Shown: piece after piece, positions 5,749-63,474 of the stretch
How positions within the stretch are numbered: the first letter of the stretch is position 1
How the letters are laid out: the number at the start of each line of letters is the position of its first letter
From: Caballeronia concitans
Lineage (GTDB): Bacteria; Pseudomonadota; Gammaproteobacteria; Burkholderiales; Burkholderiaceae
Length of the DNA: 64,000 nucleotides
NCBI RefSeq assembly: GCF_001544615.1
Contig: NZ_FCNV02000014.1
Location: 62,001-126,000, forward strand
Direction of reading: 5' to 3'
Notes under the pieces: model-generated
What the model was told of the DNA's origin: nothing
The model's input: the letters and a program-made list of their open reading frames with translations, nothing else
The model's database searches: none
Program-made: the position numbers and the translations under genes

Positions 5749-5749
5749 G

Positions 5750-7135: not shown

Positions 7136-7162
7136 CACGCTCACCACGCTCACCACGCTCAC
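7136..7162. repeat. Three perfect tandem copies of a 9-bp unit
   Basis: CACGCTCAC is repeated three times without interruption, starting directly after the kinase stop codon in the 56-bp gap before the phosphatase gene. It could change copy number by slippage and so alter kinase/phosphatase spacing; no functional evidence is visible. Confidence 0.85.
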
Positions 7163-7191
7163 CGCAATAAGCATCCGAAGGAGCACGACCG

Positions 7192-44527: not shown

Positions 44528-44665
44528 TCGTCGCTTTCCGGCGCACACGCGCAGTAAATTTTTCCACCCAGGCCGAATTCCCTCCGGAGAGCGGGGATGG
44601 CCAGCAGTATCCGACAGCCTCTGTAGCAATCGCAGGTGTTGTGCTGCATCCAGACCGCGATTGTC

Positions 44666-46846: not shown

Positions 46847-46866
46847 TGCGCGCGGCGGCGCGCATC
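46845..46866. terminator. Stem-loop between convergent receptor and oxidoreductase genes
   Basis: Perfect 9-bp arms GATGCGCGC and GCGCGCATC with a GGCG loop start at the stop codon of the receptor gene. No T tract follows, so it is either a non-classical terminator or an mRNA-stabilising hairpin. Confidence 0.5.
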
Positions 46867-46882
46867 GCGATGCGGATGAGCC

Positions 46883-47983: not shown

Positions 47984-48226
47984 AGTGTGTTCGGGTGAGC
48001 CCAGATCATGCGGAAGAGGAAGCATAAGGGTAAACGTGAATCTCTGCTCGGCACGCGGTCGCGAGACCGATTTCCCAGTCACGGCGTACAACGGGCGCAG
48101 TTCAATTCGAGGATGGCTGCGAATGACCGCGCGGTCCGTCCCATTTCATACGCACTACCAATTAACACCGTTGTGCAAACTCGTGTCGGAGCGATTGCAA
48201 CTCATAATCCGCCGATATCCGCCGGG

Positions 48227-49114
48227 CTATTCCAGCTCTTCAAAAAGCCAGTCCTGAAAGCTCTTCACTTTCGGCAGGTCCACCGACGACTTGAGTAAGT
48301 TCAGCGTATACCCATTCACGCTCAACCCGTCGAACCCGAACGGCGCGACGAGCTTTCCCGCATCGAGCTCGCGCTGCACGAGCAGCAGACTCTCCAGACA
48401 CACGCCGACTCCATCGACCGCCGCGCTGATCGCCATGAACGAGCGATCGAAGCGCGGTCCGCGCGAAATGTCGAGCGGCGTCTTCCGATGCATACGCATC
48501 CAGTCGCGCCATCCGACCAGACAATTCTCGCTGTGAATCAGCGTGTGATGCTTCAGGTCCGCCACCGTGCGAATCGGATGCTTCCCTTCCATCAGCGCCG
48601 GCGAACACAGCGGCACGATGGTCTCCGACGGCAGGTCGAGCACCAGCGTGCCCGCCGGTTGCAGCCTGCGCGCGCCGTATCGCAAGTCGATATCGACGGA
48701 CTCACGCGTCAGATCGACGGGATCGTTCGACGCATTCAGCCGCAAATCGATGTCCGGATGCCGCGACGAAAAGCGCGCGAGCCGCGGCATCAGCCATTGC
48801 GTGGCGAAGCTCGGCGTCGAATGCACGGTGAGGATGTCGCTCTTGGCCACGCGCCCGATGTCGCGCGTCGCCTTCTCGATGCGCGCGAACGCCGCGCCGA
48901 TCTCTTCCGCATAGTGCCGGCCGCTGTCGGTGAGGATCACCGCGCGATGCACGCGATGAAAGAGCCTCAGGCTCAACTGCTCTTCCAGCAGCTTGATCTG
49001 ATGGCTGATCGCGGACGGCGTCACGAACAGTTCCTCTGCTGCAAGCGCGAAAGAGGAGAGCCTCGCCGCCGCCTCGAACGCTTGTATGGACTTGAGCGTC
49101 ACGCGATTGTGCAT
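48227..49114 (-). CDS. LysR-family regulator (GcvA-like), module A
   Basis: 295 aa. Helix-turn-helix VTLKSIQAFEAAARLSSFALAAEELFVTPSAISHQIKLLEEQLSLRLFHR; effector domain with SFATQWLMPRLARFSSRHPDIDLRL typical of the GcvA subgroup. It is divergent from the first split-transketolase pair, and a 13-bp palindrome lies in the 143-bp gap, so it probably controls the operon from 49.26 to 57.87 kb. The second LysR at 57.9 kb has a comparable place before the second transketolase pair. Confidence 0.92.
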   Translation of the reverse strand: MHNRVTLKSIQAFEAAARLSSFALAAEELFVTPSAISHQIKLLEEQLSLRLFHRVHRAVILTDSGRHYAEEIGAAFARIEKATRDIGRVAKSDILTVHSTPSFATQWLMPRLARFSSRHPDIDLRLNASNDPVDLTRESVDIDLRYGARRLQPAGTLVLDLPSETIVPLCSPALMEGKHPIRTVADLKHHTLIHSENCLVGWRDWMRMHRKTPLDISRGPRFDRSFMAISAAVDGVGVCLESLLLVQRELDAGKLVAPFGFDGLSVNGYTLNLLKSSVDLPKVKSFQDWLFEELE

Positions 49115-49127
49115 TGCAGTGCTCGGA

Positions 49128-49140
49128 TGAATTCAATTCA
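49128..49140. promoter_or_regulatory. Putative LysR operator palindrome
   Basis: TGAATTCAATTCA: perfect 6-bp arms TGAATT and AATTCA around one base, 14 bp upstream of the LysR start codon in the divergent gap. A LysR autoregulation or activation site is the simplest reading. Confidence 0.45.
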
Positions 49141-49257
49141 ACGATGCGCCACTTTAATTCGTTTGAGCGCGGCTGTCTAAAGCAATACGCTTGAACCTAC
49201 TCACTGGCCGCCGCGTTCGAGGGAATACCCGGAGTCGCGCGGGCCGCCAATAAAACG

Positions 49258-50106
49258 ATGGAGACAACACGCGTGAACAACGACATCGCGCAACTCGCGG
49301 AGCATGCGCATCGCATTCGGCGCAACGCCCTTCTGATGGGCGAGGTGCAAGGCCAGGGCTATATCGGCCAGGCGCTCGATATCGCCGACGTGCTCGCGGT
49401 CGCCTATTTCGGCGCGATGAATCACCGCCCCGACGATCCCGCATGGGAAGAGCGCGATCGCTTTCTTCTGTCCAACGGTCACTACGCGATCGCGCTCTAC
49501 GCCGCGCTCTTCGAAGCGGGTGTGTTGCCCGAAGACGAACTCGAAACCTACGGCAGCGACGACAGCCGTTTGCCGATGTCCGGCATGGCGAGCTACACGC
49601 CCGGCATGGAAATGTCCGGCGGCTCGCTCGGTCAGGGCCTGACGATCGCAGTCGGCCGCTGTCTCGGTCTGAAGCGCAAGGGCTCAACATCCTTCGTCTA
49701 CACGCTTTTCTCCGACGGCGAACTCGATGAAGGCGCGATCTGGGAAGGCCTGATGTCCGCCGCGCACTGGAGACTCGACAACCTCATCGCCATCGTCGAT
49801 GTGAACAACCAGCAAGCCGATGGTCCCTCGACGCAGGTCATGGCATTCGAGCCGCTCGTCGAGAAGCTCGAAGCATTCGGCTGGTACACGCAACGCATCG
49901 ACGGCAACGACATCCGCGCCGTGAAAGCGGCATTCGACAACGCGCGCAACCTGAAGGAGGCGAAGCCGCGCATCATCGTGTGCGACACGAAGATGGGCTG
50001 CGGCGTGCCGTTCCTCGAGGAGCGCGAGAAGAATCACTTCATTCGCGTCGATCCGCACGAGTGGAAGCTCGCGCTCGAAGCGCTGGAACAAGGACGCCCG
50101 GCATGA
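49258..50106 (+). CDS. Split transketolase, N-terminal (TPP-binding) subunit, module A
   Basis: 282 aa. Contains the N-terminal transketolase domain: GEVQGQGYIGQALDIADVLAV, DRFLLSNGHYAIALYAAL, RLPMSGMASYTPGMEMSGGSLGQGLTIAVG and SDGELDEGAIWEGLMSAAH with VDVNNQQ. The usual GDG of the TPP/metal motif reads SDG (152-154). It must pair with the C-terminal subunit encoded next; the two overlap by ATGA. It is close to the paralogue at 58.9 kb. Start: ATG 49258, but GTG 49273 has GGAGA eight bases upstream and may be the true start. The reaction would be transfer of a C2 ketol unit; donor and acceptor are unknown. Confidence 0.88.
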   Translation: METTRVNNDIAQLAEHAHRIRRNALLMGEVQGQGYIGQALDIADVLAVAYFGAMNHRPDDPAWEERDRFLLSNGHYAIALYAALFEAGVLPEDELETYGSDDSRLPMSGMASYTPGMEMSGGSLGQGLTIAVGRCLGLKRKGSTSFVYTLFSDGELDEGAIWEGLMSAAHWRLDNLIAIVDVNNQQADGPSTQVMAFEPLVEKLEAFGWYTQRIDGNDIRAVKAAFDNARNLKEAKPRIIVCDTKMGCGVPFLEEREKNHFIRVDPHEWKLALEALEQGRPA

Positions 50107-51086
50107 ATACGCGACTGAAAACCTCCGCGATGATCGCGTCCATCGCAGGCGAAGGACAGGTCACGCGTTCCGCACCGTTCGGCCACGCACTCGCCGAACT
50201 CGCGCGCACGAATGCGAACGTCGTCGGCATGACGGCCGATCTCGGCAAGTACACGGACCTGCATGTCTTCGCGAACGCATTTCCCGAGCGCTATTACCAG
50301 ATGGGCATGGCCGAGCAACTGCTGATGGGCGCGGCCGCGGGCATGGCGCACGAAGGCGCGCAGCCGTTCGTCACGACCTATGCCGTGTTCGCGACGCGCC
50401 GCGCCTACGACTTCATCCATCAAACGATCGCGGAGGACAACCTCGACGTGAAGATCGTCGCCGCGCTGCCCGGACTCACGACCGGCTACGGTCCGAGCCA
50501 CCAGGCCGCCGAAGACCTCGCGCTGATGCGCGCGATGCCCAACATGACGGTCATCGACCCGTGCGATGCGCTCGACATCGAGCAGATGGTTCCGGCCATC
50601 GCCGCGCACAAGGGCCCGGTCTATGCGCGTCTGTTGCGCGGCAACGTGCCCGCCGTGCTCGACGAATACGGCTATCAGTTCGAACTCGGCAAAGCGAAGC
50701 TCTTGCGCGGCGGCAATGACGTGCTGATGATTTCCACCGGCATCATGACGATGCGCGCGCTCGAGACGGCCAAGGCCCTCCGGCAGGACAACGTCGACGT
50801 CGCCGTGCTGCACGTCCCGACGATCAAGCCGCTCGACACCGCGACGATCCTGCGCGAAGCGAAGCGCACCGGCCGCATGGTGGTCGTCACCGAAAACCAT
50901 ACGACGATCGGCGGACTCGGCGAAGCCGTCGCGCGCGCCCTGCTCGGCGCGGGCGTGACGCCGCCCTTCCGCCAGATCGCCCTGCCCGACGCGTTTCTCG
51001 ACGCGGGCGCGCTACCCACCTTGCACGATCGCTACGGCATCTCGACCGAAGCGATGTGCAACACCATCAAAGGCTGGCTCGGCTAA
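50103..51086 (+). CDS. Split transketolase, C-terminal subunit, module A
   Basis: 327 aa. Pyrimidine-binding domain with RSAPFGHALAELARTNANVVGMTADLGKYTDLHVFANAFPERYYQMGMAEQLLMGAAAGMA (Glu of MAEQ activates TPP), PFVTTYAVFATRRAYDFIHQ, GLTTGYGPSHQAAEDLALMRAMPNMTV, then the transketolase C-terminal domain with ISTGIMTMRALETA and HVPTIKPLD. It is coupled to the N-terminal subunit gene by the ATGA overlap. The GYGPSHQ loop, with His next to the active site, is kept in both paralogues. Confidence 0.9.
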   Translation: MNTRLKTSAMIASIAGEGQVTRSAPFGHALAELARTNANVVGMTADLGKYTDLHVFANAFPERYYQMGMAEQLLMGAAAGMAHEGAQPFVTTYAVFATRRAYDFIHQTIAEDNLDVKIVAALPGLTTGYGPSHQAAEDLALMRAMPNMTVIDPCDALDIEQMVPAIAAHKGPVYARLLRGNVPAVLDEYGYQFELGKAKLLRGGNDVLMISTGIMTMRALETAKALRQDNVDVAVLHVPTIKPLDTATILREAKRTGRMVVVTENHTTIGGLGEAVARALLGAGVTPPFRQIALPDAFLDAGALPTLHDRYGISTEAMCNTIKGWLG

Positions 51087-51121
51087 GCCTTCATCGACAA
51101 CAACCACTGGAGATTCAAATC

Positions 51122-51886
51122 ATGTCAGAGTCGCGTCTTCTCGAAGGCAAGGTCGCCGTCATTTCCGGAGCGGCATCGCCGCGCGGGATCGGCATGGCGA
51201 CGGCGCGCATGTTCGCGAAGCACGGCGCGAAAGTCGCCATTCTCGATCTCGACGAAGCCGCCGCGCGCGAAGCGGCCGGCAGCATCGGCCCGGAACATCG
51301 CGGCTATGTCTGCAACGTGACCGACCGCGCCGCGTGCGACGCCGCCGTGGATCGCATCGTCACGGACTTCGGCGGCATCGACATTCTCATCAACAACGCG
51401 GGCGTCACGCAGGCCGCGAAGCTGCTCGACATCGACTCCGAAAGCTGGGACCGCATTCTCGACGTGAACCTGCGCGGCGTGCTGTATCTGTCGCAAGCCG
51501 TCGTCCCGGTGATGAAGCGCAACGGCGGCGGCTCGATCGGCTGCATGTCGTCGGTATCGGCGCAGCGCGGCGGCGGCATTCTCGGCGGCCCGCACTATTC
51601 CGCCGCGAAGGCAGGCGTGCTCGGTCTCGCCAAGGCGATGGCGCGCGAGTTCGGCGTCGACGGCATCCGCGTGAATTGCGTGACGCCGGGCCTCATTCAG
51701 ACCGACATCAACGCCGGCAAGATCAGCGACGAAAAACGCGTCGAGATTCTCGCCGGCATTCCGCTCAATCGTCTGGGCGTGCCCGACGACGTCGCCGGCG
51801 CATTTCTCTTTCTCTCCGCGCCGATTTCCTCGTACATTACGGGCGCCGTCATCGACGTGAACGGAGGCATGCTGATTCACGGTTGA
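51122..51886 (+). CDS. Short-chain dehydrogenase/reductase
   Basis: 254 aa classical SDR: cofactor motif SGAASPRGIGMATA (15-28), Asp42 region AILDLDE suggesting NAD preference, NNAGVT (91-96), catalytic Ser near 143-144 and YSAAK (Tyr159, Lys163), and the C-terminal TGAVIDVNGGMLIHG. It lies 35 bp after the split transketolase and 60 bp before the TRAP receptor gene, so it probably oxidises or reduces the pathway's hydroxyl substrate. Substrate unknown. Confidence 0.92.
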   Translation: MSESRLLEGKVAVISGAASPRGIGMATARMFAKHGAKVAILDLDEAAAREAAGSIGPEHRGYVCNVTDRAACDAAVDRIVTDFGGIDILINNAGVTQAAKLLDIDSESWDRILDVNLRGVLYLSQAVVPVMKRNGGGSIGCMSSVSAQRGGGILGGPHYSAAKAGVLGLAKAMAREFGVDGIRVNCVTPGLIQTDINAGKISDEKRVEILAGIPLNRLGVPDDVAGAFLFLSAPISSYITGAVIDVNGGMLIHG

Positions 51887-51946
51887 AACGCGCGGCATCG
51901 AATAACAACACTTATATCGACATCACCCGGTTTGGAGGAGCACACC

Positions 51947-52987
51947 ATGACCACTCGCACGAAAGACAGCGGCATCGACCGGCGTACGTTCCTGAAGACG
52001 GGCGCGACCATCGCCGCGGCCGCTCCGCTGTTCGCCATCACGACGCGCCGCGCATCGGCGGCCGAGTTCTCGTACAAGCTCGCGACGGGTCAGGACCCGA
52101 CGCATCCGGTGAACATTCGCGGCCAGCAGGCCTGCGACAAGATCCGCGAAGCGACCGGCGGCAGGCTCGACATCAAGCTCTTTCCCGCCAATCAGCTCGG
52201 CTCCGACACCGACCTGCTCTCGCAGGTGCGCAGCGGCGGCGTCGAGTTCTTCAATCTCGCATCGTCGATTCTCGCGACACTCACGCCCGCCGCCGGCATC
52301 GTCAACACGGGCTTCGCGTTTCCCGACTACGACACCGTCTGGAAAGCCATGGACGGCGATCTCGGCGGTTATATCCGCCAGCAGATCGAGAAGTCGGGAA
52401 TCATCGCGGTGTCGAAGCCGTGGGACAACGGCTTTCGGCAAGTGAGTTCGTCCACGCGCGTCGTGAAGACGCCCGCCGATCTGAAGGGCTTCAAGATTCG
52501 CGTGCCGCAAGCGCCGATGCTCACGTCGCTCTTCAAGTCGCTCGATGCCGGTCCCGCGCCGATCAACTTCAACGAACTGTATTCCGCGTTGCAGACGGGC
52601 GTGGTCGAAGGTCAGGAAAACCCGTTGCCGATCATCGCGACGGCGAAGCTCTACGAAGTGCAGAAGTCCATCAGCCTCACGTCGCACGTGTGGGACGCGT
52701 ACTGGATTCTCGGCAACCGCCGCGCGTGGGAGAAGCTGCCCGCCGACATGCGCGCGATCGTCACGCGCGAGTTCGAAGCGGCCGGCATGAATCAGCGCGC
52801 GGATATCGCGAAGCTAAATTCGAGCCTGCGCGACGACCTGAAGGGCAAGGGCATCAACATCGTCGAGGTAGATCGTGAAGCGTTCCGCGGCGCGCTGAAG
52901 AAAACGAGCTTCTATACCGACTGGAAATCGAAGTACGGCGAGCAAGGCTGGGGCGTGCTCGAAAAGTACACCGGCAAACTGGTATGA
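51947..52987 (+). CDS. TRAP transporter solute-binding protein (DctP family)
   Basis: 346 aa with a twin-arginine type signal (DRRTFLKTGATIAAAAPLFAI) and mature start near AAEFSYKLATG. DctP features are HPVNIRGQQACDKIREATGGRLDIKLFPANQLG, the ligand-carboxylate Arg in LKGFKIRVPQ, and NFNELYSALQTGVVEGQENPLPII. It captures a carboxylate-bearing substrate in the periplasm. GGAGGAG lies eight bases before the ATG. It overlaps the membrane gene that follows by ATGA. Confidence 0.93.
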   Translation: MTTRTKDSGIDRRTFLKTGATIAAAAPLFAITTRRASAAEFSYKLATGQDPTHPVNIRGQQACDKIREATGGRLDIKLFPANQLGSDTDLLSQVRSGGVEFFNLASSILATLTPAAGIVNTGFAFPDYDTVWKAMDGDLGGYIRQQIEKSGIIAVSKPWDNGFRQVSSSTRVVKTPADLKGFKIRVPQAPMLTSLFKSLDAGPAPINFNELYSALQTGVVEGQENPLPIIATAKLYEVQKSISLTSHVWDAYWILGNRRAWEKLPADMRAIVTREFEAAGMNQRADIAKLNSSLRDDLKGKGINIVEVDREAFRGALKKTSFYTDWKSKYGEQGWGVLEKYTGKLV

Positions 52988-54855
52988 AAATCATGCAGAC
53001 GGTTCCGCTTCCGCATCCGGCGCCGCATCGCGGTATCGCGGCGAAACTCGATACCGTGCTCGGCCATCTCGTCGAGATTCCGGCAGCGCTGCTGGTCGTG
53101 GCCGAGATCGTCGTGCTGCTCGCCGGCGTGACGAGCCGCTATGCGCTGCACACGCCGCTCGTCTGGTCCGACGAACTCGCCTCGATGCTGTTCCTCTGGC
53201 TCGCGATGCTCGGCGCGGTCGTCGCCTTGCGGCGCGGCGAGCACATGCGGATGACGGCGCTCGTCGGCATGGCGTCGCCCGGCATGCGCGCGTTTCTCGA
53301 TGTCGTCGCGATCGCGGCGCCCCTCGCCTTCCTCGCGATGGTGATCGGCCCTGCCATCGACTTCGCGCAGGACGAAGCGTTCATCACGACGCCCGCGCTC
53401 GGCATTTCCAACTCGTGGCGCGCGGCCGCGCTGCCCATCGGCTCGGGCCTGATGCTGCTCGTCGCGTGCGTGCGGCTCGTGCGCGTCGGCGACCGGAAGC
53501 TCGTGCTCGGCGCGCTCGCGGTGGTCGCGGCCATCGCAGGCGCGTTCTACGCGGCGAGTCCGATGCTGAAGGATCTCGGCAATCTGAACCTTCTGATCTT
53601 CTTCGTCGGACTCGTGGCGTTGTGCGTGCTGTCGGGCGTGCCCATCGCGTTCTCCTTCGGGCTTGCGACCTTCGGCTATCTCGCGCTCACGACGAGCACG
53701 CCGCTCGAAGTCGTGGTCGGGCGCATGGACGAAGGCATGTCGCATCTGATCCTCCTGTCCGTGCCGCTCTTCGTGTTCCTCGGACAACTGATCGAGATGA
53801 CCGGCATGGCCGCCGCGATGATCGCGTTCCTCGCGAGCCTGCTCGGTCACGTGCGCGGCGGCTTGTCGTACGTGCTCGTCGGCGCGATGTATCTCGTCTC
53901 CGGCATCTCCGGTTCGAAAGCCGCCGACATGGCCGCCGTCGCGCCCGTCTTGTTCCCCGAGATGAAGGCGCGCGGCGCGAAGCCCGGCGATCTCGTGGCG
54001 CTGCTCGCGGCAACGGGCGCGCAGACGGAAACCATTCCGCCGAGTCTCGTGCTCATCACGCTCGGCTCGGTGACCGGCGTGTCGATTTCCGCGCTGTTCA
54101 CGGGCGGCATGCTGCCGGGCATCGTGCTCGCGATCACCTTGTGCGCGGTCGTGTGGTGGCGCTATCGCGTGGACGATCTGTCGAACGTGAAACGCGCGTC
54201 GCGCGGCGAGATCCTGCGCAAGCTCGCCATCGCCCTGCCCGCGCTCGCCTTGCCGTTCGTGATTCGCGCGGCGGTGGTCGAAGGCGTCGCGACCGCGACG
54301 GAAGTCTCGACCATCGGCATCGCATATGCAGTGCTCGCGGGCCTGCTCATCTATCGCCGCTTCGAATGGGCGCGTCTCAAGCCGATGCTGATCGACACCG
54401 CCGCGTTGTCCGGCGCGATCCTGCTCATCATCGGCGCGGCGACGAGCATGGCGTGGGCGCTCACGCAATCCGGCTTCTCCGGCCAGCTCGCGCGCGCGAT
54501 GGCGGCGCTTCCCGGCGGCGGATGGATGTTCATGGCGGCCTCGATCCTCGTGTTCATCGTGCTCGGCAGCGTGCTCGAAGGCATTCCGGCAATCGTGCTG
54601 TTCGGCCCGCTGATGTTTCCGATCGCGCGGCAAATGGGCATCAACGACGTGCATTACGCGATGGTCGTGATCCTGTCGATGGGCGTCGGCCTGTTCGCGC
54701 CGCCGTTCGGCGTCGGCTATTACTCGGCGTGCGCCGTGAGCCGCATTCATCCCGACGAAGGCATGAAGCCGATCCTCGGCTATATCGCGGCGCTGATCGT
54801 CGGCCTGATTCTCGTCGCCGCCATTCCGTGGATTTCCACGGGCTTCCTGAAGTAA
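52984..54855 (+). CDS. Fused TRAP transporter permease (DctQ-DctM)
   Basis: 623 aa. Residues 1-170 are the four-helix small subunit (LVEIPAALLVVAEIVVLLAGVTSRYALHTPLVWSDELASMLFLWLAMLGA); from about 195 on is the 12-helix large subunit (SGVPIAFSFGLATFGYLALTT; SKAADMAAVAPVLFPEMKARG; TGAQTETIPPSLVLI; FAPPFGVGYYSACAVSRI). TRAP transporters use a sodium or proton gradient. DctQ and DctM are separate in most systems, fused in a minority. It works with the binding protein encoded just upstream. Confidence 0.93.
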   Translation: MKIMQTVPLPHPAPHRGIAAKLDTVLGHLVEIPAALLVVAEIVVLLAGVTSRYALHTPLVWSDELASMLFLWLAMLGAVVALRRGEHMRMTALVGMASPGMRAFLDVVAIAAPLAFLAMVIGPAIDFAQDEAFITTPALGISNSWRAAALPIGSGLMLLVACVRLVRVGDRKLVLGALAVVAAIAGAFYAASPMLKDLGNLNLLIFFVGLVALCVLSGVPIAFSFGLATFGYLALTTSTPLEVVVGRMDEGMSHLILLSVPLFVFLGQLIEMTGMAAAMIAFLASLLGHVRGGLSYVLVGAMYLVSGISGSKAADMAAVAPVLFPEMKARGAKPGDLVALLAATGAQTETIPPSLVLITLGSVTGVSISALFTGGMLPGIVLAITLCAVVWWRYRVDDLSNVKRASRGEILRKLAIALPALALPFVIRAAVVEGVATATEVSTIGIAYAVLAGLLIYRRFEWARLKPMLIDTAALSGAILLIIGAATSMAWALTQSGFSGQLARAMAALPGGGWMFMAASILVFIVLGSVLEGIPAIVLFGPLMFPIARQMGINDVHYAMVVILSMGVGLFAPPFGVGYYSACAVSRIHPDEGMKPILGYIAALIVGLILVAAIPWISTGFLK

Positions 54856-54913
54856 GTCAATCCCTTTCGAACTCGTTGATGCCGCTCCTTTCACGGAGCG
54901 GCAAGGAGAAGTC

Positions 54914-56893
54914 ATGTCTTCCATCGACACGCCAGCGCTGTCGAACGCCATCCGCTTCCTCGCCATCGATGCGATCGTGCGCGCGGGCGAAGGCCACCAG
55001 GGCGTGCCGCTCGGCATGGCCGAGATCGCCACGGCGCTCTTCACGCGCCACATGAAGTTCAATCCCGCCGATCCGCAATGGCCCGACCGTGACCGCTTCG
55101 TGCTGTCCAACGGACATGGCTCGATGCTGCTCTATGCCGTGCTGCATCTGACCGGCTATGCGAACTTCGGCATCGATCAGATCAGGACGTTTCGCGAGAT
55201 GGGCTCGCACTGCGAAGGGCATCCCGAGTTCGATACGGCGTCGGGCATCGAAGTGACGACCGGCCCGCTCGGGCAAGGCATCGCGAACGCGTTCGGCATG
55301 GCCGTCGCGGAGGCGTATCTGAACGCGAAGTTCGGCGACGGCATCGTCGATCACTACACGTACGCGTTCGTCGGCGACGGCTGTTTGCAGGAAGGCGTCG
55401 GACAGGAAATGATTTCGCTCGCGGGGCATCTGAAGCTCGGCAAGCTCATTCTGTGCTGGGACGATAACCGCATCACCGACGACGGCAGCACGTCGCTATC
55501 CATCAGCGAGGATGTGAGCGCGCGCTTTCGCGTGGCGGGCTGGCATGTGATCGAAGTCGACGGCCACGATCTGGACGCGGTTTCCCGCGCGCTCGACGAA
55601 GCGAAGCAAGACGCGCGGCCCTCGATGATCGCGTGCCGCACGGTGATCGCACGCGGCATCGCGCGTCTGCAAGGCCAGCGCGGCGGGCACAGCGGGCGTC
55701 TCTTCGAAAAGGACGCCGACGCCGCGCGCAACGAACTGAACTGGCCGCACGCGCCGTTCGAGATTCCCGCCGACGTGCTGAAAACCTGGCGCGATGCGGG
55801 CCGCCGCAGCGAAGGCGAATATCGCGCGTGGCGCGAGCGCGTCGCGTCGTTGCCGTCGCAAACGCGTGCGGAGTTCGAGCGCATCATGGCGGGCGAATTG
55901 CCGGAAGGCTGGAAAGACACGCTCGAAACGTACAAGCGCGATGCGCAGAAGAGAGACGAAGCGCCCGGCGGAATCCTGATCTCGGCGGAGATCAACGATC
56001 TGCTCGCGAACGTGCTGCCCGAGCGCGTGGTCGGCTGCGCGGACCTCGAAGCGCCGACGAGCCACAAGCGCAGCCTGCGCGGGTTCAATGCAGAAGACCG
56101 CGGCGGCGCCTACGTGCATTGCGGCGTGCGCGAGCACGTCATGGGCGCGATGGCGAACGGCATGGCCGCGCACGGCGGCATCGTGCCGCTCGCCGTCACC
56201 TATCTGGCCTTTTCCGACTACGAGCGCCCCGCGATGCGCATGGCCGCGCTGATGGGTCTGCCGGTGAAGTTCGTCTTCAGCCACGACTCGATCGGCGTCG
56301 GCAAGAACGGGCCGACGCACCAGCCGGTGGAAATCCTCGCGTCCCTGCGCGCGATGCCGAACATGCGCGTGTTTCGTCCCGCGGATGCCGTCGAAGCCGC
56401 CGAATGCTGGATGCTCGCCTACGAGCACAGGACCGGCCCGAGCACGATGGTGTTCGCCCGTCAGACGCTGCCGCTCGTGCGCCGCTCGCACGACGCGGCG
56501 AATCTCAGCGCGCGGGGCGGCTATGTGCTTGCGAAGGCCGTTGGCGGCGAGCGCCGCGTCACGCTCATCGCGACCGGCTCGGAAGTGGCCATCGCGCTCG
56601 CCGCGCGCGAGCAGTTGCAGGCGGCGGGCATTCCGACGGCCGTCGTGTCGATGCCCTGCTGCGAACTCTTCGACGAACAGGACGCGGATTATCGGCAAAG
56701 CGTGCTCGGCGCCGGCACCGTGCGCGTCGCGGTGGAAGCGGCCGTGCGCTTCGGATGGGACCGCTATCTCGGCGATCGAGGCGGCTTCGTCGGCATGAAC
56801 GGCTTCGGCGCATCGGGGCCGGCCGAGGCGTTGTACGAGCACTTCGGCATCACGCCCGCGCATGTCGTCGCACAGGCGCAGCGGCATCTTTGA
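54914..56893 (+). CDS. Transketolase, full length
   Basis: 659 aa, standard transketolase length and domain order. N-terminal GEGHQGVPLGMAEIATALFTRHMKFNP, VLSNGHGSMLLYAVLHLTGY, SGIEVTTGPLGQGIANAFGMA and an intact VGDGCLQEG with WDDNRITDDG; middle domain GVREHVMGAMANGMA; C-terminal LIATGSEVAIAL and RVAVEAAVRFGWDRY. AAGGAGAA precedes the ATG. Having this beside two split enzymes suggests different donor/acceptor pairs. It may return ketol units to the pentose phosphate pathway. Catalytic His residues (HQG, SNGHG) are present. Confidence 0.93.
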   Translation: MSSIDTPALSNAIRFLAIDAIVRAGEGHQGVPLGMAEIATALFTRHMKFNPADPQWPDRDRFVLSNGHGSMLLYAVLHLTGYANFGIDQIRTFREMGSHCEGHPEFDTASGIEVTTGPLGQGIANAFGMAVAEAYLNAKFGDGIVDHYTYAFVGDGCLQEGVGQEMISLAGHLKLGKLILCWDDNRITDDGSTSLSISEDVSARFRVAGWHVIEVDGHDLDAVSRALDEAKQDARPSMIACRTVIARGIARLQGQRGGHSGRLFEKDADAARNELNWPHAPFEIPADVLKTWRDAGRRSEGEYRAWRERVASLPSQTRAEFERIMAGELPEGWKDTLETYKRDAQKRDEAPGGILISAEINDLLANVLPERVVGCADLEAPTSHKRSLRGFNAEDRGGAYVHCGVREHVMGAMANGMAAHGGIVPLAVTYLAFSDYERPAMRMAALMGLPVKFVFSHDSIGVGKNGPTHQPVEILASLRAMPNMRVFRPADAVEAAECWMLAYEHRTGPSTMVFARQTLPLVRRSHDAANLSARGGYVLAKAVGGERRVTLIATGSEVAIALAAREQLQAAGIPTAVVSMPCCELFDEQDADYRQSVLGAGTVRVAVEAAVRFGWDRYLGDRGGFVGMNGFGASGPAEALYEHFGITPAHVVAQAQRHL

Positions 56894-56915
56894 ATCGTCA
56901 ATTCCGGACATAGTC

Positions 56916-57872
56916 ATGCAGAAGATCGTCTTTCTCGACCGCGAAACGCTCGCTCCGCAAATCACGCTCAGGCGCCCCGCATTCGAACACGAACTCGTCG
57001 AATACGACCGCACCGCGCCCGATCAGGTCGCGGCGCGCCTCGCGGGCGCGAGCATCGTCATCACGAACAAGGTCGCGATCACCGCCGACGTCATCGAGCA
57101 GGTGCCCACGCTCCAACTCGTCGCGGTCGCCGCCACGGGCACGGACGTCGTCGACAAGGCGGCGTGCGCGAAACGCGGCATCGTCGTATCGAACATTCGC
57201 GGCTATGCGGTGAACACGGTGCCGGAGCACACCTTCGCGCTGATGCTCGCGTTGCGCCGCAACCTCGTCGCATACCGCGACGACGTGCTGAACGGCGAGT
57301 GGCGGAAATTCGGCCAGTTCTGCTTCTTCAATCACGCGATACGCGATCTGGGCGGCGCCACGCTCGGCATCATCGGCGAAGGCGTGCTCGGGCAGCGCGT
57401 CGCCGAAATCGCGAAAGCGTTCGGCATGAAGCCGGTTTTCGCGGCGCATAAAGGACGCGATGGACTGGGGCCGCTCTACACGCCGTGGGACGAAGTGCTC
57501 GCGACGAGCGATGTCATCACGATCCATAGCCCGCTCACGCCGCAGACGCGCGGCATGCTGTCGACGGCCGAATTCCGCGCGATGAAGAAGAGGCCGCTCA
57601 TCATCAACACGGCGCGCGGCGGACTGGTCGACGAAGCCGCGCTGGCCGCGGCGCTGGACGAAGGGCTCATCAGCGGCATCGGTTTCGACGTGCTCACGAC
57701 GGAGCCGCCCGCGCCCGACAACCCGCTCATGCGCATCGCCGGCCGGCCGAACGTGATCGTGACGCCGCACGTCGCGTGGGCGTCGGACGAAGCGCAGCAG
57801 TCGCTCGCCGATCAGCTGATGGACAACGTCGCGGCGTTCGTCGCGGGCGCGCCGGTCAACGTGGTGTCATGA
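56916..57872 (+). CDS. D-isomer-specific 2-hydroxyacid dehydrogenase
   Basis: 318 aa. NAD-binding GIIGEGVLGQRVAEIAKAFG (GxGxxG), the catalytic Arg in INTARGGLVDEAAL, Glu in GIGFDVLTTEPP and His in VIVTPHVAWAS are all present, with SNIRGYAVNTVPEHTFALMLALRRN. It is of the hydroxypyruvate/glycerate dehydrogenase type. In this setting it could reduce a 2-oxo acid (glyoxylate or hydroxypyruvate) made by the pathway; this is inference. Its stop overlaps the stop of the convergent LysR gene. Confidence 0.92.
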   Translation: MQKIVFLDRETLAPQITLRRPAFEHELVEYDRTAPDQVAARLAGASIVITNKVAITADVIEQVPTLQLVAVAATGTDVVDKAACAKRGIVVSNIRGYAVNTVPEHTFALMLALRRNLVAYRDDVLNGEWRKFGQFCFFNHAIRDLGGATLGIIGEGVLGQRVAEIAKAFGMKPVFAAHKGRDGLGPLYTPWDEVLATSDVITIHSPLTPQTRGMLSTAEFRAMKKRPLIINTARGGLVDEAALAAALDEGLISGIGFDVLTTEPPAPDNPLMRIAGRPNVIVTPHVAWASDEAQQSLADQLMDNVAAFVAGAPVNVVS

Positions 57873-58757
57873 CCGCTCGACGATACCGAGCGCGTTCAGC
57901 AGCCACGCCTTGAAGGTCTCGAACGCCTCGTGCCGATGCGCCCTGCGCGGATGCACGAGGTAGTGCCCCACGTACTCCACTTCTTTTGCCGATCCGGCGA
58001 GCGGCCGCACGAGTTCGCCGCGCTGCAGCTCGCGCTCGGACAGCAACGTCGATTCGAGCACGACGCCGAGACCGTCGACGGCGGCGGCGATCGCCATCGA
58101 ACTGCGGTCGAAGCGCAGGCCGTAGTGCGTCGGCGGCGGAAGCGCGTTGGCTTCGAACCAGCCTTTCCATTGATACATCTGCACTTCGCACTGGATCAGC
58201 GGCAGGTGATACAGATCTTGCGGCTCGCGGATGCGCTCCGCGAGCGCCGGCGTGCACAAGGGCGCTAGGCCTTCGAGCACGAGCGGAATCTTTTCGTGCG
58301 GTGAAGGCTTCGGCTCGCCATAGACGATGTCGAGATCGAAGTCGTCGTCGAAGCGCGCGTAGTCGGTATTCGCGGAAAAGCGCAAGTCGATGTTCGGGTG
58401 ATCGCGCACGAAGCCCGCGAGCCGCGGCAGCAGCCATTGCGTCGCGAAGCTCGGCGCGGTGTGCAGCCGCAGCGGCGTGCGCTCGTCGCTCGCCAGCAGC
58501 GCAAAGCCGCGCTGCATCTCGTCCATGCCGCGCTGGATGTGCTCCATCAGCATCGCGCCTTCGCGCGTGAGGCGCACTTCCCGCGTGCTGCGCAGGAAGA
58601 GCCTGGTCCGGAGCAGATCTTCCATCTTGCGCACCGAATGACTGACCGCGCTGGGCGACAGATTCAGCTCGCGAGCAGCATCCGCGAAAGAAAGCGTGCG
58701 GCCGGCAGCCTCGAAAACCCGGATATACGAGAGCGGAACCTTGCGGAAGACGTTCAT
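57867..58757 (-). CDS. LysR-family regulator (GcvA-like), module B
   Basis: 296 aa. Helix-turn-helix VPLSYIRVFEAAGRTLSFADAARELNLSPSAVSHSVRKMEDLLRTRLFLR; effector domain with SFATQWLLPRLAGFVRDHPNIDLRF, close to the module A regulator. It is divergent from the second split-transketolase pair (174-bp gap) and convergent with the 2-hydroxyacid dehydrogenase gene, sharing stop-codon bases. It probably controls the operon that runs from 58.9 to 63.1 kb. Confidence 0.92.
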   Translation of the reverse strand: MNVFRKVPLSYIRVFEAAGRTLSFADAARELNLSPSAVSHSVRKMEDLLRTRLFLRSTREVRLTREGAMLMEHIQRGMDEMQRGFALLASDERTPLRLHTAPSFATQWLLPRLAGFVRDHPNIDLRFSANTDYARFDDDFDLDIVYGEPKPSPHEKIPLVLEGLAPLCTPALAERIREPQDLYHLPLIQCEVQMYQWKGWFEANALPPPTHYGLRFDRSSMAIAAAVDGLGVVLESTLLSERELQRGELVRPLAGSAKEVEYVGHYLVHPRRAHRHEAFETFKAWLLNALGIVERS

Positions 58758-58931
58758 GCGCGGGATTCGTGAATGGTGTTCATCAGTTGCTGCAATCTTT
58801 TCTTTTGTCAGCGCCGGCTGTCAAGGCTAAATTTTGCCAACCTCGTTTCCACACTGCCCGATTGCTGAACAGGAGACAACTGCAGCTTTCGGAGGTTGTC
58901 GAGGATTTCTCTTCCGTCCGCAGGAACAGCC

Positions 58932-59822
58932 ATGACAATGATTACCGAGGCCGAGCCGCAAGCCGGCTCGCGCCCAGCGCAACTCGCCAAACTCGCCGAT
59001 CACGCTTACCGCATTCGCCGCTTCGCGCTGCGCATGGGCGAAGTGCAGGGCCAGGGCTATATCGGCCAGGCGCTCGGACTCGCCGATGCCCTCGCCGTCG
59101 CCTGGTGCCACGCGATGAACCTCCGCCCCGCCGATCCCGAATGGGAAGGCCGCGACCGCTTTCTGCTCTCGCACGGCCACTACGCGATCGCGCTTTACGC
59201 CGCGCTGATCGAAGCGGGTGTGATCCCCGAGGAAGAGCTGGAAACGTACGGCTCCGACGACTCGCGCCTGCCCATGTCCGGCATGGCCACGTACACGCCG
59301 GGCATGGAAATCTCGGGCGGCTCGCTCGGGCAGGGGCTGACGATCGCCGTCGGCATGGCGCTCGGTCTCCGTCTGAAGGGCAATCCGGCATTCGTCTACA
59401 ACTCGATGTCCGACGGCGAGCTCGATGAAGGCGCGACGTGGGAAGCCGCGTTGTCCGCCGCGCATCACGGCCTCGGCAATCTCATCACGATGGTCGACAT
59501 CAACCGCCAGCAGGCGGACGGCCCGTCGCACGACGTGCTCGCCTTCGAGCCGCTCGCGGACAAGTTCGCGTCGTTCGGCTGGCACGTCGAGCGCGTGAAC
59601 GGCAACGACATGCCCGCGCTGGTCGCGGCATTCGACCGTTGCCGGTCGCTGAACGAGGCGAAGCCGCGCGTCATCCTGCTCGACACCTTGATGGGCAAGG
59701 GCGTGCCGTTTCTGGAGGCGCGCGAGAAGAATCACTTCATCCGGGTGGACCCCGAAGAATGGCAGCAGGCGATCGCCGTGCTCGATCAACACCACGCAGC
59801 AGCACAAGGAGACGCAGCATGA
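58932..59822 (+). CDS. Split transketolase, N-terminal subunit, module B
   Basis: 296 aa. Same layout as the module A subunit: GEVQGQGYIGQALGLADALAV, DRFLLSHGHYAIALYAAL, RLPMSGMATYTPGMEISGGSLGQG, SDGELDEGATWEAALSAAH and VDINRQQADGP. The SDG in place of GDG is shared, while several surface loops differ and the N-terminus is 14 residues longer. CAGGAACAG precedes the ATG at 58932. It overlaps the C-terminal subunit gene by ATGA. Clearly a paralogue of the 49.3-kb gene, most likely by duplication. Confidence 0.9.
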   Translation: MTMITEAEPQAGSRPAQLAKLADHAYRIRRFALRMGEVQGQGYIGQALGLADALAVAWCHAMNLRPADPEWEGRDRFLLSHGHYAIALYAALIEAGVIPEEELETYGSDDSRLPMSGMATYTPGMEISGGSLGQGLTIAVGMALGLRLKGNPAFVYNSMSDGELDEGATWEAALSAAHHGLGNLITMVDINRQQADGPSHDVLAFEPLADKFASFGWHVERVNGNDMPALVAAFDRCRSLNEAKPRVILLDTLMGKGVPFLEAREKNHFIRVDPEEWQQAIAVLDQHHAAAQGDAA

Positions 59823-60820
59823 GCGCCGTCGCTGAAAAGAAACCACGCCTCACGACCTCCGCGATGATCGCGTCGATCGCATCGGAAGGCCAGCAGACGC
59901 GTCCCGCGCCGTTCGGCCACGCGCTCGTCGCGGAAGCGGAGAAGCGCCGCAACATCGTCGGCATGACGGCCGATCTGTCGAAGTACACCGACCTGCACAT
60001 CTTCAGCCAGGCGTTCCCCGAGCGTCACTTTCAGATGGGCATGGCCGAGCAGTTGTTGATGGGCGCGGCGGGCGGCATGGCGAAGGAAGGCTTCATTCCG
60101 TTTGCGACGACCTACGCCGTGTTCGCCACGCGCCGCGCGTACGACTTCATCCACCAGGTGATCGCGGAAGAGAACCTCAACGTGAAAATCTGCGCGGCGC
60201 TGCCCGGACTCACGACCGGTTATGGCCCGAGCCACCAGGCGACCGAAGACCTCGCGTTGATGCGCGCGATTCCCGGCATGACCGTGATCGACCCATGCGA
60301 CGCGCTGGACACCGAACAGGCCGTCGCCGCGATCGCGGCGCACGAAGGCCCGGTCTACATGCGTCTCTTGCGCGGCAAGGTGCCCGCCGTGCTCGACGAC
60401 TACGACTACCGCTTCGAACTCGGCAAGGCGAAGATGCTGCGCGACGGCGCGGACGTGCTCATCGTCTCGTCCGGCATCATGACCATGCGCGCGCTCGAAG
60501 CAGCGCAGGCGCTGGATGACGGCTCGGCGAGCGTCGGCGTGCTGCACGTGCCGACCATCAAGCCGCTTGACGAGGCGACCATCATCGAGCAATGCAGGAA
60601 GCCGGGACGGCTCGTGATCGTCGCGGAGAACCACAGCGTGATCGGCGGTCTGGGCGACGCCGTGACGAGCGCACTGGTGCGTCATCGCGTGATGCCGGAG
60701 TTCCGTCAGATCGCCCTGCCCGACCAGTTTCTCGATGCGGGCGCGCTGCCGACGCTGCACGACCGCTATGGCATTTCGACGGCATCCATCGTGGAAAACA
60801 TCAAACACTGGCTCAAGTAA
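59819..60820 (+). CDS. Split transketolase, C-terminal subunit, module B
   Basis: 333 aa. RPAPFGHALVAEAEKRRNIVGMTADLSKYTDLHIFSQAFPERHFQMGMAEQLLMGAAGGMA, ATRRAYDFIHQVIAEENLNVKICAALPGLTTGYGPSHQATEDLALMRAIPGMTV and VPTIKPLDEATI align with the module A subunit almost without gaps. Both domains of the transketolase C-terminal half are complete. It is followed two bases later by the dehydrogenase gene, so transcription and probably translation are coupled. Confidence 0.92.
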   Translation: MSAVAEKKPRLTTSAMIASIASEGQQTRPAPFGHALVAEAEKRRNIVGMTADLSKYTDLHIFSQAFPERHFQMGMAEQLLMGAAGGMAKEGFIPFATTYAVFATRRAYDFIHQVIAEENLNVKICAALPGLTTGYGPSHQATEDLALMRAIPGMTVIDPCDALDTEQAVAAIAAHEGPVYMRLLRGKVPAVLDDYDYRFELGKAKMLRDGADVLIVSSGIMTMRALEAAQALDDGSASVGVLHVPTIKPLDEATIIEQCRKPGRLVIVAENHSVIGGLGDAVTSALVRHRVMPEFRQIALPDQFLDAGALPTLHDRYGISTASIVENIKHWLK

Positions 60821-60822
60821 TC

Positions 60823-61674
60823 ATGAACGTGACTTTCATTGGGATCGGTGCGATCGGTCTGCCGATGGCGCTGCGAATCAAGGGCGCGGGCCACGACGTG
60901 ACCGGCGTCGACCTGTCGCCCCGAGCGCTCGACATGGCGCGCGAGAGCGGTCTTGCCGCCGTCGACAGTTTCGCGGCCGCGCCTGCGCCGGACGTCGTCG
61001 TCGCGATGGTGGCGACGCCGCAGCAGCTCGCATCGCTCGTCGAGAGCGTCGGCACGAAGCTCGACAACCAGACCTGGGTCGTCATGTCGACGGTCGGTCC
61101 GGATGCGGTGCGCGAGCAAGGCAAACGCCTTGCGGCGGCAGGCGCGCGCGTCGTCGATGCGCCCGTGACCGGCGGCACCGCGCGTGCGAAGACCGGCCAG
61201 CTCGTGATCTTCGCATCGGGCGATCAGGCGGACATCGACGCCGCGCGCCCCGTGCTCGACGCGATGGGCAGCGTGCGCGTCACCGGCCCGAAGCTCGGCG
61301 ACGGGCAGGCGATCAAGGTCGTGAACCAGCATCTGTGCTCGGTGCATATCGTCGCGGCGGCCGAAGCGCTGAATCTGGCGCGCTCGCTCGGCCTCGATCC
61401 GGCGGCCGTGCTCGAACTCGTCGAGAAAGGCGCGGCGGGCTCGTGGATGCTTTCGGATCGCGGTCCGCGCATGCTGCAAGGCACGGACGTGAACGTGACC
61501 AGCTCGATCAACATTTTCGTTAAAGACAGCGATCTCGTCGCCCATGCCGCGAAGTCCTGCGGCGCGGATGTGCCGCTGCTTTCGATCGCCAACGCGCGTT
61601 ATCACGAAGCCGCCGACAAGGGACTCGGCCTGCGCGACGACAGCCGCGTGATAGAAACCTGGGAGAAGTCCTGA
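60823..61674 (+). CDS. 3-hydroxyisobutyrate dehydrogenase-family beta-hydroxyacid dehydrogenase
   Basis: 283 aa. N-terminal GIGAIGLPMALRIKGAGHDVTGVD (NAD(P)-binding), DAPVTGGTARAKTGQLVIFASG (substrate loop), and the catalytic-Lys region GDGQAIKVVNQHLCSVHIVAAAEALNLARSLG; C-terminal helical domain with NIFVKDSDLVAHAAKSCGADVPLLSIANARYHEA. The family includes tartronate semialdehyde reductase and L-threonate dehydrogenase. The downstream helix keeps the usual order. Its place after the split transketolase suggests that it acts on the C3-C4 hydroxyacid or semialdehyde of the pathway. Confidence 0.92.
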   Translation: MNVTFIGIGAIGLPMALRIKGAGHDVTGVDLSPRALDMARESGLAAVDSFAAAPAPDVVVAMVATPQQLASLVESVGTKLDNQTWVVMSTVGPDAVREQGKRLAAAGARVVDAPVTGGTARAKTGQLVIFASGDQADIDAARPVLDAMGSVRVTGPKLGDGQAIKVVNQHLCSVHIVAAAEALNLARSLGLDPAAVLELVEKGAAGSWMLSDRGPRMLQGTDVNVTSSINIFVKDSDLVAHAAKSCGADVPLLSIANARYHEAADKGLGLRDDSRVIETWEKS

Positions 61675-61781
61675 GATCGGGACGCCATTTGTCGCGTTGA
61701 AAGCGCTCGGCGAAGCGCAACGCATTCTCGGCCGCCTCGCTTCCCGCAGGCGGCTGGTTGATGTATCGGAGACACCACGAC

Positions 61782-63089
61782 ATGAGCAGCAACAACGAAG
61801 ACCGCGCGGTCAAGGTGGCCGTCGCGTCGATGATCGGCTCGGCGGTCGAGAGCTACGACTTCTTCATCTACGGCACGGCCGCCGCCGCGTGGTTCGGCAA
61901 GATATTCTTTCATACGACCGAGCCGATCGTCGGCATTCTGGCGTCGTTCGCGACGCTCGCCATCGGCTTTCTCATGCGTCCGTTCGGCGGCTATCTCGCC
62001 GGACACTACGGCGATCGCCTGGGCCGCAAGGCCGTGCTGTTCTGGTCGCTCGTGGCAATGGGCGGCGCGACCGTGCTGATCGGCTTCCTGCCGACTTACG
62101 CGCAAGCCGGCGTGCTCGCGCCGATCCTGCTCATCCTGCTGCGCATGGTGCAGGGCGTCGGCTTCGGCGCTGAATGGGGCGGCGCGGTGCTGATGGCGTG
62201 TGAACACGCGCCGGAGAAGCGCCGTGGTTTCTTCGGCGCGGTGCCGCAACTGGGCATTCCGCTCGGCCTGCTCCTTGCGAACGGCGCGTTCCTTTTGTCG
62301 GGCGCGCTCTTCGAAGGCGACTGGGTCTGGCGCATGCCATTCCTGATGTCTTTCGTGATGGTCGCGATCGGCATCTTCATCCGGATGAGCGTGTCCGAGT
62401 CGCCGGCATTCGAAGCGGTGAAAGCCGAGAACAAGGTGATGAAGCAACCGGCGCTCGAAGTCATCAGGAGCGACTGGCGCGGCATTCTGAAGATCGTCGG
62501 CCTGCGCATGGCGGAGACCGGCGGCTACTACATCACGACGAGTTTCATGCTGTCGTATGTGGCGCTCGCGCATGTGTCGACCACGCGCCATATCCTGTGG
62601 GGCACGTTGATCGGCTCCGCGCTCGGCCTCGTGAGCCACCTGATCTACGGCGCGCTGAGCGACAGGATCGGCCGCCGTCCGGTGTTCATGATGGGCGCGC
62701 TGTTCACCATCGCCTTCGGCGTGCCGATGTTCATGCTGATCAACACCGGCGCGGTCATCATGGTGATCGTCGCGGTCGCGCTGTCCCTGCTCTTCAGCCA
62801 CGATCCAATTTTCGCGGTCGAAGCAAGCTGGTTCTCGGAGCAGTTTCCGGCCAACGTGCGCTCGTCGGGCATTTCGCTCGGCTATAACGGTGCGTCGGTG
62901 ATCGCGGGTCTTCTGCCGATCATCGCCACCGGCATGTACGGCGCGTTCGGCTGGATCGGTCCGGCGCTGATGTTCTCCGTGCTCGGCGTGATCTCGACAT
63001 GCTGTGCGCTGGCGATGAAGGAGACCGCGCCCGCCGTGCTGGAGAAACGCGATCTGCGGCACAGCGCGGATCGGCGCTTCGCGGCTTAG
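61782..63089 (+). CDS. MHS-family (major facilitator) metabolite:proton symporter
   Basis: 435 aa with 12 transmembrane helices. MHS features are ASMIGSAVESYDFFIYGTAAAAWFGKIFF, FLMRPFGGYLAGHYGDRLGRKAVL (motif A), GVGFGAEWGGAVLMACEHAPEKRRGFFGAVPQLGIPLGLLLANG and WRMPFLMSFVMVAIGIFIRMSVSESPAF. Substrates in this family include citrate, 2-oxoglutarate, proline and shikimate. It is the last gene of module B and would import its substrate. GGAGA lies nine bases before ATG 61782. A strong terminator follows. Confidence 0.92.
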   Translation: MSSNNEDRAVKVAVASMIGSAVESYDFFIYGTAAAAWFGKIFFHTTEPIVGILASFATLAIGFLMRPFGGYLAGHYGDRLGRKAVLFWSLVAMGGATVLIGFLPTYAQAGVLAPILLILLRMVQGVGFGAEWGGAVLMACEHAPEKRRGFFGAVPQLGIPLGLLLANGAFLLSGALFEGDWVWRMPFLMSFVMVAIGIFIRMSVSESPAFEAVKAENKVMKQPALEVIRSDWRGILKIVGLRMAETGGYYITTSFMLSYVALAHVSTTRHILWGTLIGSALGLVSHLIYGALSDRIGRRPVFMMGALFTIAFGVPMFMLINTGAVIMVIVAVALSLLFSHDPIFAVEASWFSEQFPANVRSSGISLGYNGASVIAGLLPIIATGMYGAFGWIGPALMFSVLGVISTCCALAMKETAPAVLEKRDLRHSADRRFAA

Positions 63090-63136: not shown

Positions 63137-63474
63137 GCTTTTCGGCAAGGGCGTGCCGCAGAAACGCTCGCCATCATGTGCTGCTGCTTTGAGCGACGCA
63201 AAGCCAGTCCGCGGTCGAATACAAGGACGCCAGGCCCGCCCGATGACAATGACCGGACGGCAACAGCTAGAAACGTGAAGGCGTCGGGTGTGGCTTTGCC
63301 CGGCCAACGTCGCGTTCGAAAGCCGCCGCCGTGCACGCGTTCGAGCGCAAGCGGCGGCGGCGGCGACAGGCGTTGCGTTGCTGTCCGCTGACCGGTCCGA
63401 GCCGCACAGCCTCGCAGATGTTGGTGCGCCGATTGCTACTCAGAGCGCCAAGCACTTCATCCTCGAGGCCATGC
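63137..63474. other. Intergenic region, 338 bp
   Basis: No gene with a plausible start and ribosome site was found on either strand. It includes a GC-rich stretch of short GGC/GCG runs near 63340-63370 and should contain the promoter of the following gene. Nothing else is recognised. Confidence 0.4.

Follow-up and report, generated by a model that had tools for sequence, protein, structure and literature searches.

Split transketolases (TKs), composed of separate N- and C-terminal subunits, have been described from several bacterial systems, and these were compared with an island of catabolic genes in Caballeronia concitans (assembly GCF_001544615.1, contig NZ_FCNV02000014.1) located at positions 48,227 to 63,089 of an analyzed stretch of 64,000 nucleotides (the window). 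The island comprises two gene sets, modules A and B, both of which sit behind divergent LysR genes and contain a split TK; module A additionally encodes a full-length TK. The region is tentatively proposed, with a confidence somewhat short of even, to encode a pathway that breaks down small sugar acids in unphosphorylated form, in which a dehydrogenase would produce a keto-acid donor and the TKs would take a C2 unit from it.

Among solved structures, the split TK of Carboxydothermus hydrogenoformans (PDB 6yaj, 6yak) is the best match of both subunits, showing the same division into N and C parts and, for the N subunit, 41% identity. The window clade shares with it the two-subunit architecture and the thiamine diphosphate (ThDP)/catalytic residues but has lost H26, H100, S385, H461 and D469 (numbering of Escherichia coli TktA), all of which are retained by the C. 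hydrogenoformans enzyme. AptAB, the apulose-4-phosphate TK of E. coli SE15 (ECSF_RS02710, ECSF_RS02715), is likewise a split TK within a catabolic cluster (PMC13001218). However, its subunits are only 36% and 31% identical to those of the window, AptA keeps H26 and H100, AptB lacks R520, and the enzyme adjoins an FGGY kinase and sugar ATP-binding cassette (ABC) genes, whereas no kinase was matched in the window module. Identity, residues and the lack of a kinase among the module genes thus rule out that the window TKs represent AptAB. The initial annotation, made from the sequence alone, had found no pathway it could name that matches the island. The Rhizobium leguminosarum genes RL2718-RL2719, encoding transketolases beside a CUT2 binding protein and showing raised levels in the alfalfa rhizosphere (PMC3333776), may belong to an apt-type locus.

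SqwGH, the sulfofructose TK of the sulfo-TK pathway, resembles the window enzymes as proposed here in taking a C2 unit from an unphosphorylated sulfo-sugar (PMC9594981). It is set apart by its neighbors only, since its partners SqvB, SqvD, SqwI and SqwF have no Pfam counterpart among the module genes. The steroid-17,20-desmolase DesAB is similar in operon layout: its locus combines a LysR gene, a short-chain dehydrogenase/reductase (SDR) gene (desE) and the N and C subunits of a TK, and DesE oxidizes or reduces the ketone needed by the desmolase TK (PMC5408610, PMC12876203). Module A has the same content in the order LysR, TKN, TKC, SDR, and the order LysR-SDR-TKN-TKC was found in L063, L064, L065 and L067 of the loci described below. 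DesAB differs in its steroid substrate and in its occurrence, with 44 operons reported among more than 2.23 million genomes (PMC12876203) compared with 54 of 150 family genomes for the window clade.

DesAB and AptAB bear on an alternative in which the donor is branched, its ketone being flanked by a tertiary alcohol as in apulose-, apionate- or 2-C-methyltetronate-like compounds. The split TK would then cleave HOCH2-CO-C(OH)(R)- to a C2 unit and a ketone or 2-oxo acid, as was proposed for the desmolase acting on cortisol. The gene layout matches that of lysR-desE-desA-desB (PMC5408610), but the low identity to AptAB speaks against it, as does the fact that Pfam and NCBIfam searches of the module genes revealed neither an apiose kinase nor an isomerase type; this alternative is regarded as distinctly improbable.

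Substrate-site replacements in the split and full-length transketolases

The subunits were aligned with E. coli TktA, and positions were assigned by this alignment. In the split clade, the N subunits carry H26Y and H100S (54/54) and the C subunits S385Y, F434Y, H461L and a deletion of D469 (55/55), while the ThDP/catalytic residues D155, N185, E411, H66, H261 and H473 are retained, as are D381 and, in all 55 C subunits, R520. R358 was not placed with certainty; a basic residue is present in the neighboring motif in 34 of 57 sequences. The full-length clade shows R358I, D469N and F434Y in 11/11 members and S385P in ten (S385A in one), and retains H26, H66, H100, H261, H461, H473 and R520. Although the full-length TK of the window scores above the curated cut-off of TIGR00232 for canonical bacterial TKs (719.5 vs. 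682.25 bits), it lacks the canonical substrate-site residues R358, S385 and D469. These residues belong to the substrate site of TktA, and since the respective positions are replaced, both kinds of TK are predicted to lack parts of the usual sugar-phosphate-holding site, by different replacements in each.

Thirty control TKs had all thirteen compared positions intact; they were the top-scoring loci when 41 genomes were searched, one being from the own genome, and the set therefore leans to canonical enzymes. The controls are relevant for the assumption that the island merely contains ordinary reserve TKs within a mixed catabolic region, acting on normal pentose-phosphate substrates with replacements of little effect. 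Pfam and NCBIfam indeed call all three enzymes transketolases, and the TIGR00232 score of the full-length one fits this assumption. Nevertheless, it is considered highly improbable: the replacements are invariant within the clades and absent from all controls, every compared position is intact in the three other TKs of the same genome, and the neighborhood is conserved. A role of the full-length TK restricted to regenerating glyceraldehyde 3-phosphate is weakened by the loss of R358 and S385.

The replacements also bear on the nature of donor and acceptor. The Tyr residues at positions 26 and 385 and the Leu at 461 alter the shape of the site, which is a point in favor of a branched donor. Alternatively, a straight-chain sugar or polyol could be utilized: the SDR would convert, for instance, a tetritol or pentitol to an unphosphorylated ketose, whose C2 unit the split TK would give to a central sugar phosphate, similar to SqwGH, which transfers C2 to glyceraldehyde 3-phosphate (PMC9594981). 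This alternative, rated as unlikely, is in line with the retention of R520 in the split TK. A phosphorylated acceptor is, however, made less likely by the loss of S385 and H461, residues that we take to participate in holding phosphorylated substrates.

Conserved gene neighborhoods and relation of the two modules

The 54 family genomes with a match to TKC1, the C subunit of module A (E ≤ 1e-60, own genome included), represent 10 of 25 genera. In a sample of 398 genomes from the phylum, 24 (counting the own genome) gave TKC1 matches at E ≤ 1e-90, and the split-TK clade is also present in other proteobacterial classes; TKC2 of module B was matched (E ≤ 1e-120) in 6 of 300 genomes of the order, again with the own genome. 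Furthermore, 327 plasmid records match TKC1 (E ≤ 1e-30). Within 40 of these taken at even steps, identity declines from 91% to 65.7% over the first 23, which include Paraburkholderia, Caballeronia, Azospirillum, Bradyrhizobium, Rhizobium, Agrobacterium, Variovorax, Paracoccus, Pantoea and others, and is 42.2% in the next record. This drop suggests a separate clade; two genomes of the phylum sample, at 55% and 50% identity to TKC1, lie within the gap.

Neighborhoods were counted by direct search with the window proteins within 8.5 kb of the TK in 55 loci (L041, L043-L060, L062-L072, L188-L212), excluding the locus that overlaps the window (L042), the AptAB locus and short loci (~3.5 kb). The loci are not independent since 19/55 originate from one family, and contig ends truncate some of them. 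Both TK subunits were detected in 55/55 loci, accompanied by an SDR with at least 55% identity to that of the window in 45 and by a LysR regulator with at least 35% identity in 44. The binding protein DctP of the tripartite ATP-independent periplasmic (TRAP) transporter was found at any identity in 29 loci (at least 55% in nine), the full-length TK in 10 (all at least 63% identical), the dehydrogenase of 3-hydroxyisobutyrate dehydrogenase (HIBDH) type in 13 (at least 55% in five), the 2-hydroxyacid dehydrogenase at 55% or more in seven, and the metabolite:H+ symporter (MHS) in four. Clustering instead of direct search placed the SDR in 48 and the N subunit in 54 loci, with looser SDRs counted in. 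The SDR is missing from ten loci, namely L050, L051, L053 and L056, which are of module B, and L054, L058, L072, L194, L208 and L209.

Twenty stretches of 19–20 kb from one family were mapped with the window genes. A layout as in module A was found in L043, L045, L046, L055 and L059, with an HIBDH-type gene directly after the 2-hydroxyacid dehydrogenase gene in L045. The module B layout (LysR, TKN2, TKC2, HIBDH, MHS) recurs in L050, L051 and L056, and in L053 with no mapped LysR and with TRAP genes nearby. A third type, C, consisting of an SDR and a split TK of the A kind in the absence of TRAP genes, is represented by L041, L044, L047, L048, L049, L052 and L060; in L041 and L044, a galactonate-transporter-type carrier of the major facilitator superfamily (MFS), whose cluster spans 11 loci, lies between SDR and TK. 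TRAP and split TK genes are combined in L054, L057 and L058. Beyond these stretches, LysR-SDR-TKN-TKC-TRAP was found in annotated Rhizobium, Agrobacterium, Azospirillum and Bradyrhizobium records, other gene orders in Paracoccus and another Rhizobium, and LysR, SDR and TK without TRAP in a Pantoea record. Since these gene sets are found again in other genera, the island is more than a chance assembly.

The initial annotation had described the two split-TK modules as duplicated, lying 9.7 kb apart with subunits alignable nearly end to end. Spacing and alignment were reproduced (split-TK parts recur at 9698–9734 bases; identity is 71% across 269 aa for the N subunits and 74% across 323 aa for the C subunits), but the duplication was not. 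In a 58-row tree built from concatenated N- and C-subunit sequences (713 columns; quick IQ-TREE run with SH-aLRT support only), L043 and L045 share a 22-row clade with module A (SH-aLRT 99), and module B falls into an 11-row clade together with L050, L051, L053 and L056 (SH-aLRT 100). A tandem duplication is rejected on this basis, and a local duplication is not supported. The two LysR regulators are 40% identical. Given the separate clades and the fact that each module retains its own partner genes in other genomes, A and B are best interpreted as two older paralogous modules located side by side. In the genome (6.17 Mb, 47 contigs), Transket_pyr was matched ten times; these matches include a third split TK on contig C35 (L041), which is placed near module A on the tree. 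This locus (4869–10679) contains a carboxymuconolactone-decarboxylase-type gene followed by LysR, SDR, MFS carrier, TKN and TKC genes.

Sampled SDRs are at least 58% identical to one another (17 rows, picked at more than 50% to the window SDR). Split TKs of modules A and C from the same genus or near loci (L041, L044, L047-L049) are 85–91% identical and their SDRs 60–62%. By analogy with the 20alpha- and 20beta-hydroxysteroid dehydrogenases of steroid desmolase, this divergence would fit dehydrogenases of different stereochemistry converging on one shared keto acid.

A proposed route for sugar acids

For the sugar-acid route, it is assumed that the TRAP or MHS carrier would import the acid, which would then be oxidized by the SDR in module A and perhaps by the HIBDH-type enzyme in module B. 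The product would end in HOCH2-CO-CH(OH)-R-COOH and thus represent a TK donor similar in kind to 5-keto-gluconate. The split ThDP enzyme would remove the C2 unit of this unphosphorylated keto acid and leave a shorter aldehydic acid, namely glyoxylate from a C4, tartronate semialdehyde from a C5 and tartaric semialdehyde from a C6 donor. Such products could be reduced by the 2-hydroxyacid and HIBDH-type dehydrogenases, whose families include glyoxylate, tartronate semialdehyde and hydroxypyruvate reductases according to NCBIfam names. The full-length TK, also altered, may handle the C2 unit or a second donor. Since much of the phosphate site of the split TK is gone, this enzyme may give the C2 unit to an unphosphorylated aldehyde, with the full-length TK possibly performing a second step; a phosphorylated acceptor is possible as well because R520 is kept. 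Acid substrate and its identity, direction of the dehydrogenase, order of steps and acceptor are what we infer from the genes.

The window holds the pieces of this route, i.e., carriers, a putatively NAD-type SDR, altered TKs and suitable dehydrogenases. Its support also includes the presence of the SDR subfamily next to the TK in 45/55 loci, the lack of a matched kinase or aldolase, and the carriers adjoining the TKs, which belong to types that transport acids (TRAP, MHS and galactonate-type MFS). Moreover, the chemistry has a laboratory counterpart. A TK for the 5-keto-gluconate reaction must accept a non-phosphorylated substrate, and 5-keto-gluconate derives from L-idonate via a dehydrogenase (review PMC11066805). 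The E. coli TktA variant R358I/H461S/R520Q showed 55.3% enhanced activity on unphosphorylated 5-keto-D-gluconate, and Gluconobacter equipped with it formed tartaric semialdehyde, the acceptor being glycolaldehyde or formaldehyde (PMC12016104). The same substrate-site positions are changed in the window enzymes, R358I being native in the full-length clade. However, the engineered enzyme is a laboratory variant of a canonical TK, whereas R520 is kept in both window clades and H461 in the full-length one. The initial suggestion of C2 transfer to and from unphosphorylated acids or sugars is accordingly favored as far as the active sites are concerned, its chemical part being a matter of interpretation.

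Several observations weigh against the sugar-acid route. R520 in both kinds of TK, H461 in the full-length one and the basic residue beside the R358 position of many split TKs are retained, and therefore some phosphate binding may remain. The gain reported for engineered TktA was modest and included R520Q, which occurs in neither clade. The four module B loci listed above have no such SDR, the full-length TK accompanies less than a fifth of the loci, and in the open-license literature no substrate or biochemistry was found for any clade member. Furthermore, a CUT2 sugar-type ABC ATPase was detected in 13/55 loci and the Pantoea locus has a sugar porter, for which reason a sugar or polyol substrate is possible; the TRAP and MHS carriers of the window speak against the latter. 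In L063 (13873–18359), L064, L191, L196 and L198, the genes near the TK include a set for a CUT2 sugar ABC transporter as well as one for an Amidohydro_2 protein. The Amidohydro_2 protein, a weak L-fucono-lactonase match (108 of 400 bits), is possibly a lactonase supplying an aldonate to the TK route. A xylose-isomerase-like TIM barrel is encoded next to the TK in L070; of the other loci searched, L202 alone shares it.

Ligand assignments were attempted via the dehydrogenases and binding proteins. The HIBDH-type enzyme scored 213 bits against the L-threonate dehydrogenase model NF043037 and, lying below the curated cut-off of 350, is not assigned to this function; the genome's own member above the cut-off (474 bits) is located on contig C27. 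An alphaproteobacterial counterpart in L070 reached 310.8 of 350 bits, and counterparts of this L070 enzyme are present in seven further loci (51–65% identity). The closest solved TRAP binding protein to the window DctP is chain 4oan (61% identity), whose ligand is presumably a branched C5 acid, although a literature search for the ligand did not show it. Among the best 80 of 587 relatives of 4oan, 60 loci longer than 20 kb were examined, and none (0/60) had a split TK beside the 4oan-group binding protein. Hence, the ligand is not transferable to the window DctP, and a branched donor loses this argument. In L076 (9905–14520, Rhodopseudomonas), 4oan relatives occur with a fused DctQM and, as judged by eye, an AMP-ligase-like gene. 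For the CUT2 binding protein of a Rhizobium etli locus, the best solved match reached only 72 bits, and ligand assignment failed.

Taken further, the sugar-acid route would imply a natural TK family for unphosphorylated keto-aldonates and a widespread 'oxidize, then transketolate' route, with the full-length TK as a second, separately altered enzyme and C2 units moving between unphosphorylated skeletons; this extension is conceivable but rather doubtful. In the open-license literature, no title or abstract opening describing the cluster was found; the enzyme set is widespread but undescribed. If the extension holds, 'transketolase' annotations in many plant- and soil-associated bacteria would denote a separate sugar-acid pathway, and natural enzymes would be available for the conversion of keto-aldonates to semialdehydes, so far pursued by engineering E. 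coli TktA (PMC12016104). The unnamed island would thus lead to one clear question, namely which keto acid is taken by the split TK and which acceptor receives the C2 unit.

Gene content of the island and flanking genes

Pfam and NCBIfam searches recovered each gene named in the initial annotation at its position, and, as noted there, no kinase or aldolase family was matched among the island genes. Module A extends from TKN1 to the 2-hydroxyacid dehydrogenase gene and is tightly packed (intergenic gaps, calculated from the frames used, range from −32 to 58 bases), the TKC1 ATG at 50103 giving a 4-base overlap with TKN1; module B extends from TKN2 to the MHS gene. The SDR is predicted to be NAD-type from the DLD motif after its second strand. 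The 2-hydroxyacid dehydrogenase may alternatively start with the ATG at 56916. The MHS symporter scored 351.7 bits against TIGR00883, below the cut-off of 443.45.

Table 1. Genes of the C. concitans island with window positions, strand and basis of assignment.
Feature	Position	Strand	Basis
LysR regulator, module A	48227..49114	-	Pfam HTH_1 and LysR_substrate
Split TK N subunit, TKN1	49258..50106	+	Pfam Transketolase_N; nearest solved chain 6yak
Split TK C subunit, TKC1	50103..51086	+	Pfam Transket_pyr and Transketolase_C (longer frame); nearest solved chain 6yaj
SDR, module A	51122..51886	+	NCBIfam SDR models; conserved subfamily; ATG at 51122
TRAP binding protein DctP	51932..52987	+	Pfam DctP; solved chain 4oan
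Fused TRAP membrane protein DctQM	52984..54855	+	Pfam DctQ and DctM, single frame
Full-length TK, altered substrate site	54914..56893	+	TIGR00232; R358I, S385P, D469N, F434Y
D-2-hydroxyacid dehydrogenase	56862..57872	+	Pfam 2-Hacid_dh and 2-Hacid_dh_C
LysR regulator, module B	57867..58757	-	Pfam
Second split TK N subunit, TKN2	58896..59822	+	Pfam Transketolase_N
Second split TK C subunit, TKC2	59819..60820	+	Pfam Transket_pyr and Transketolase_C (longer frame)
HIBDH-type beta-hydroxyacid dehydrogenase	60820..61674	+	Pfam NAD_binding_2 and NAD_binding_11
MHS-type MFS symporter	61758..63089	+	Pfam MFS_1 and Sugar_tr

Upstream of module A (44636–48091), a TonB-dependent receptor gene and an NADH:flavin oxidoreductase-type gene are located; neither label appeared in any neighborhood cluster of at least four loci. 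Downstream of the MHS gene, an NAD-dependent epimerase/PRISE-type gene (63331–64000, plus strand) runs off the window. Elsewhere in the window, a VipB-type tail-sheath protein (24590–26092, minus strand; Pfam VipB, VipB_2), a mark of a type VI secretion cluster, and an end-to-end match to NrsF, the negative regulator of sigma F (32846–33487, plus strand), are encoded. Furthermore, a histidine kinase with an RsbRD_N domain (38188–39318, minus strand) was identified. At 40371–43548 (plus strand), a KaiC-type ATPase precedes a reading frame in which histidine kinase ATPase and response-regulator domains are combined.

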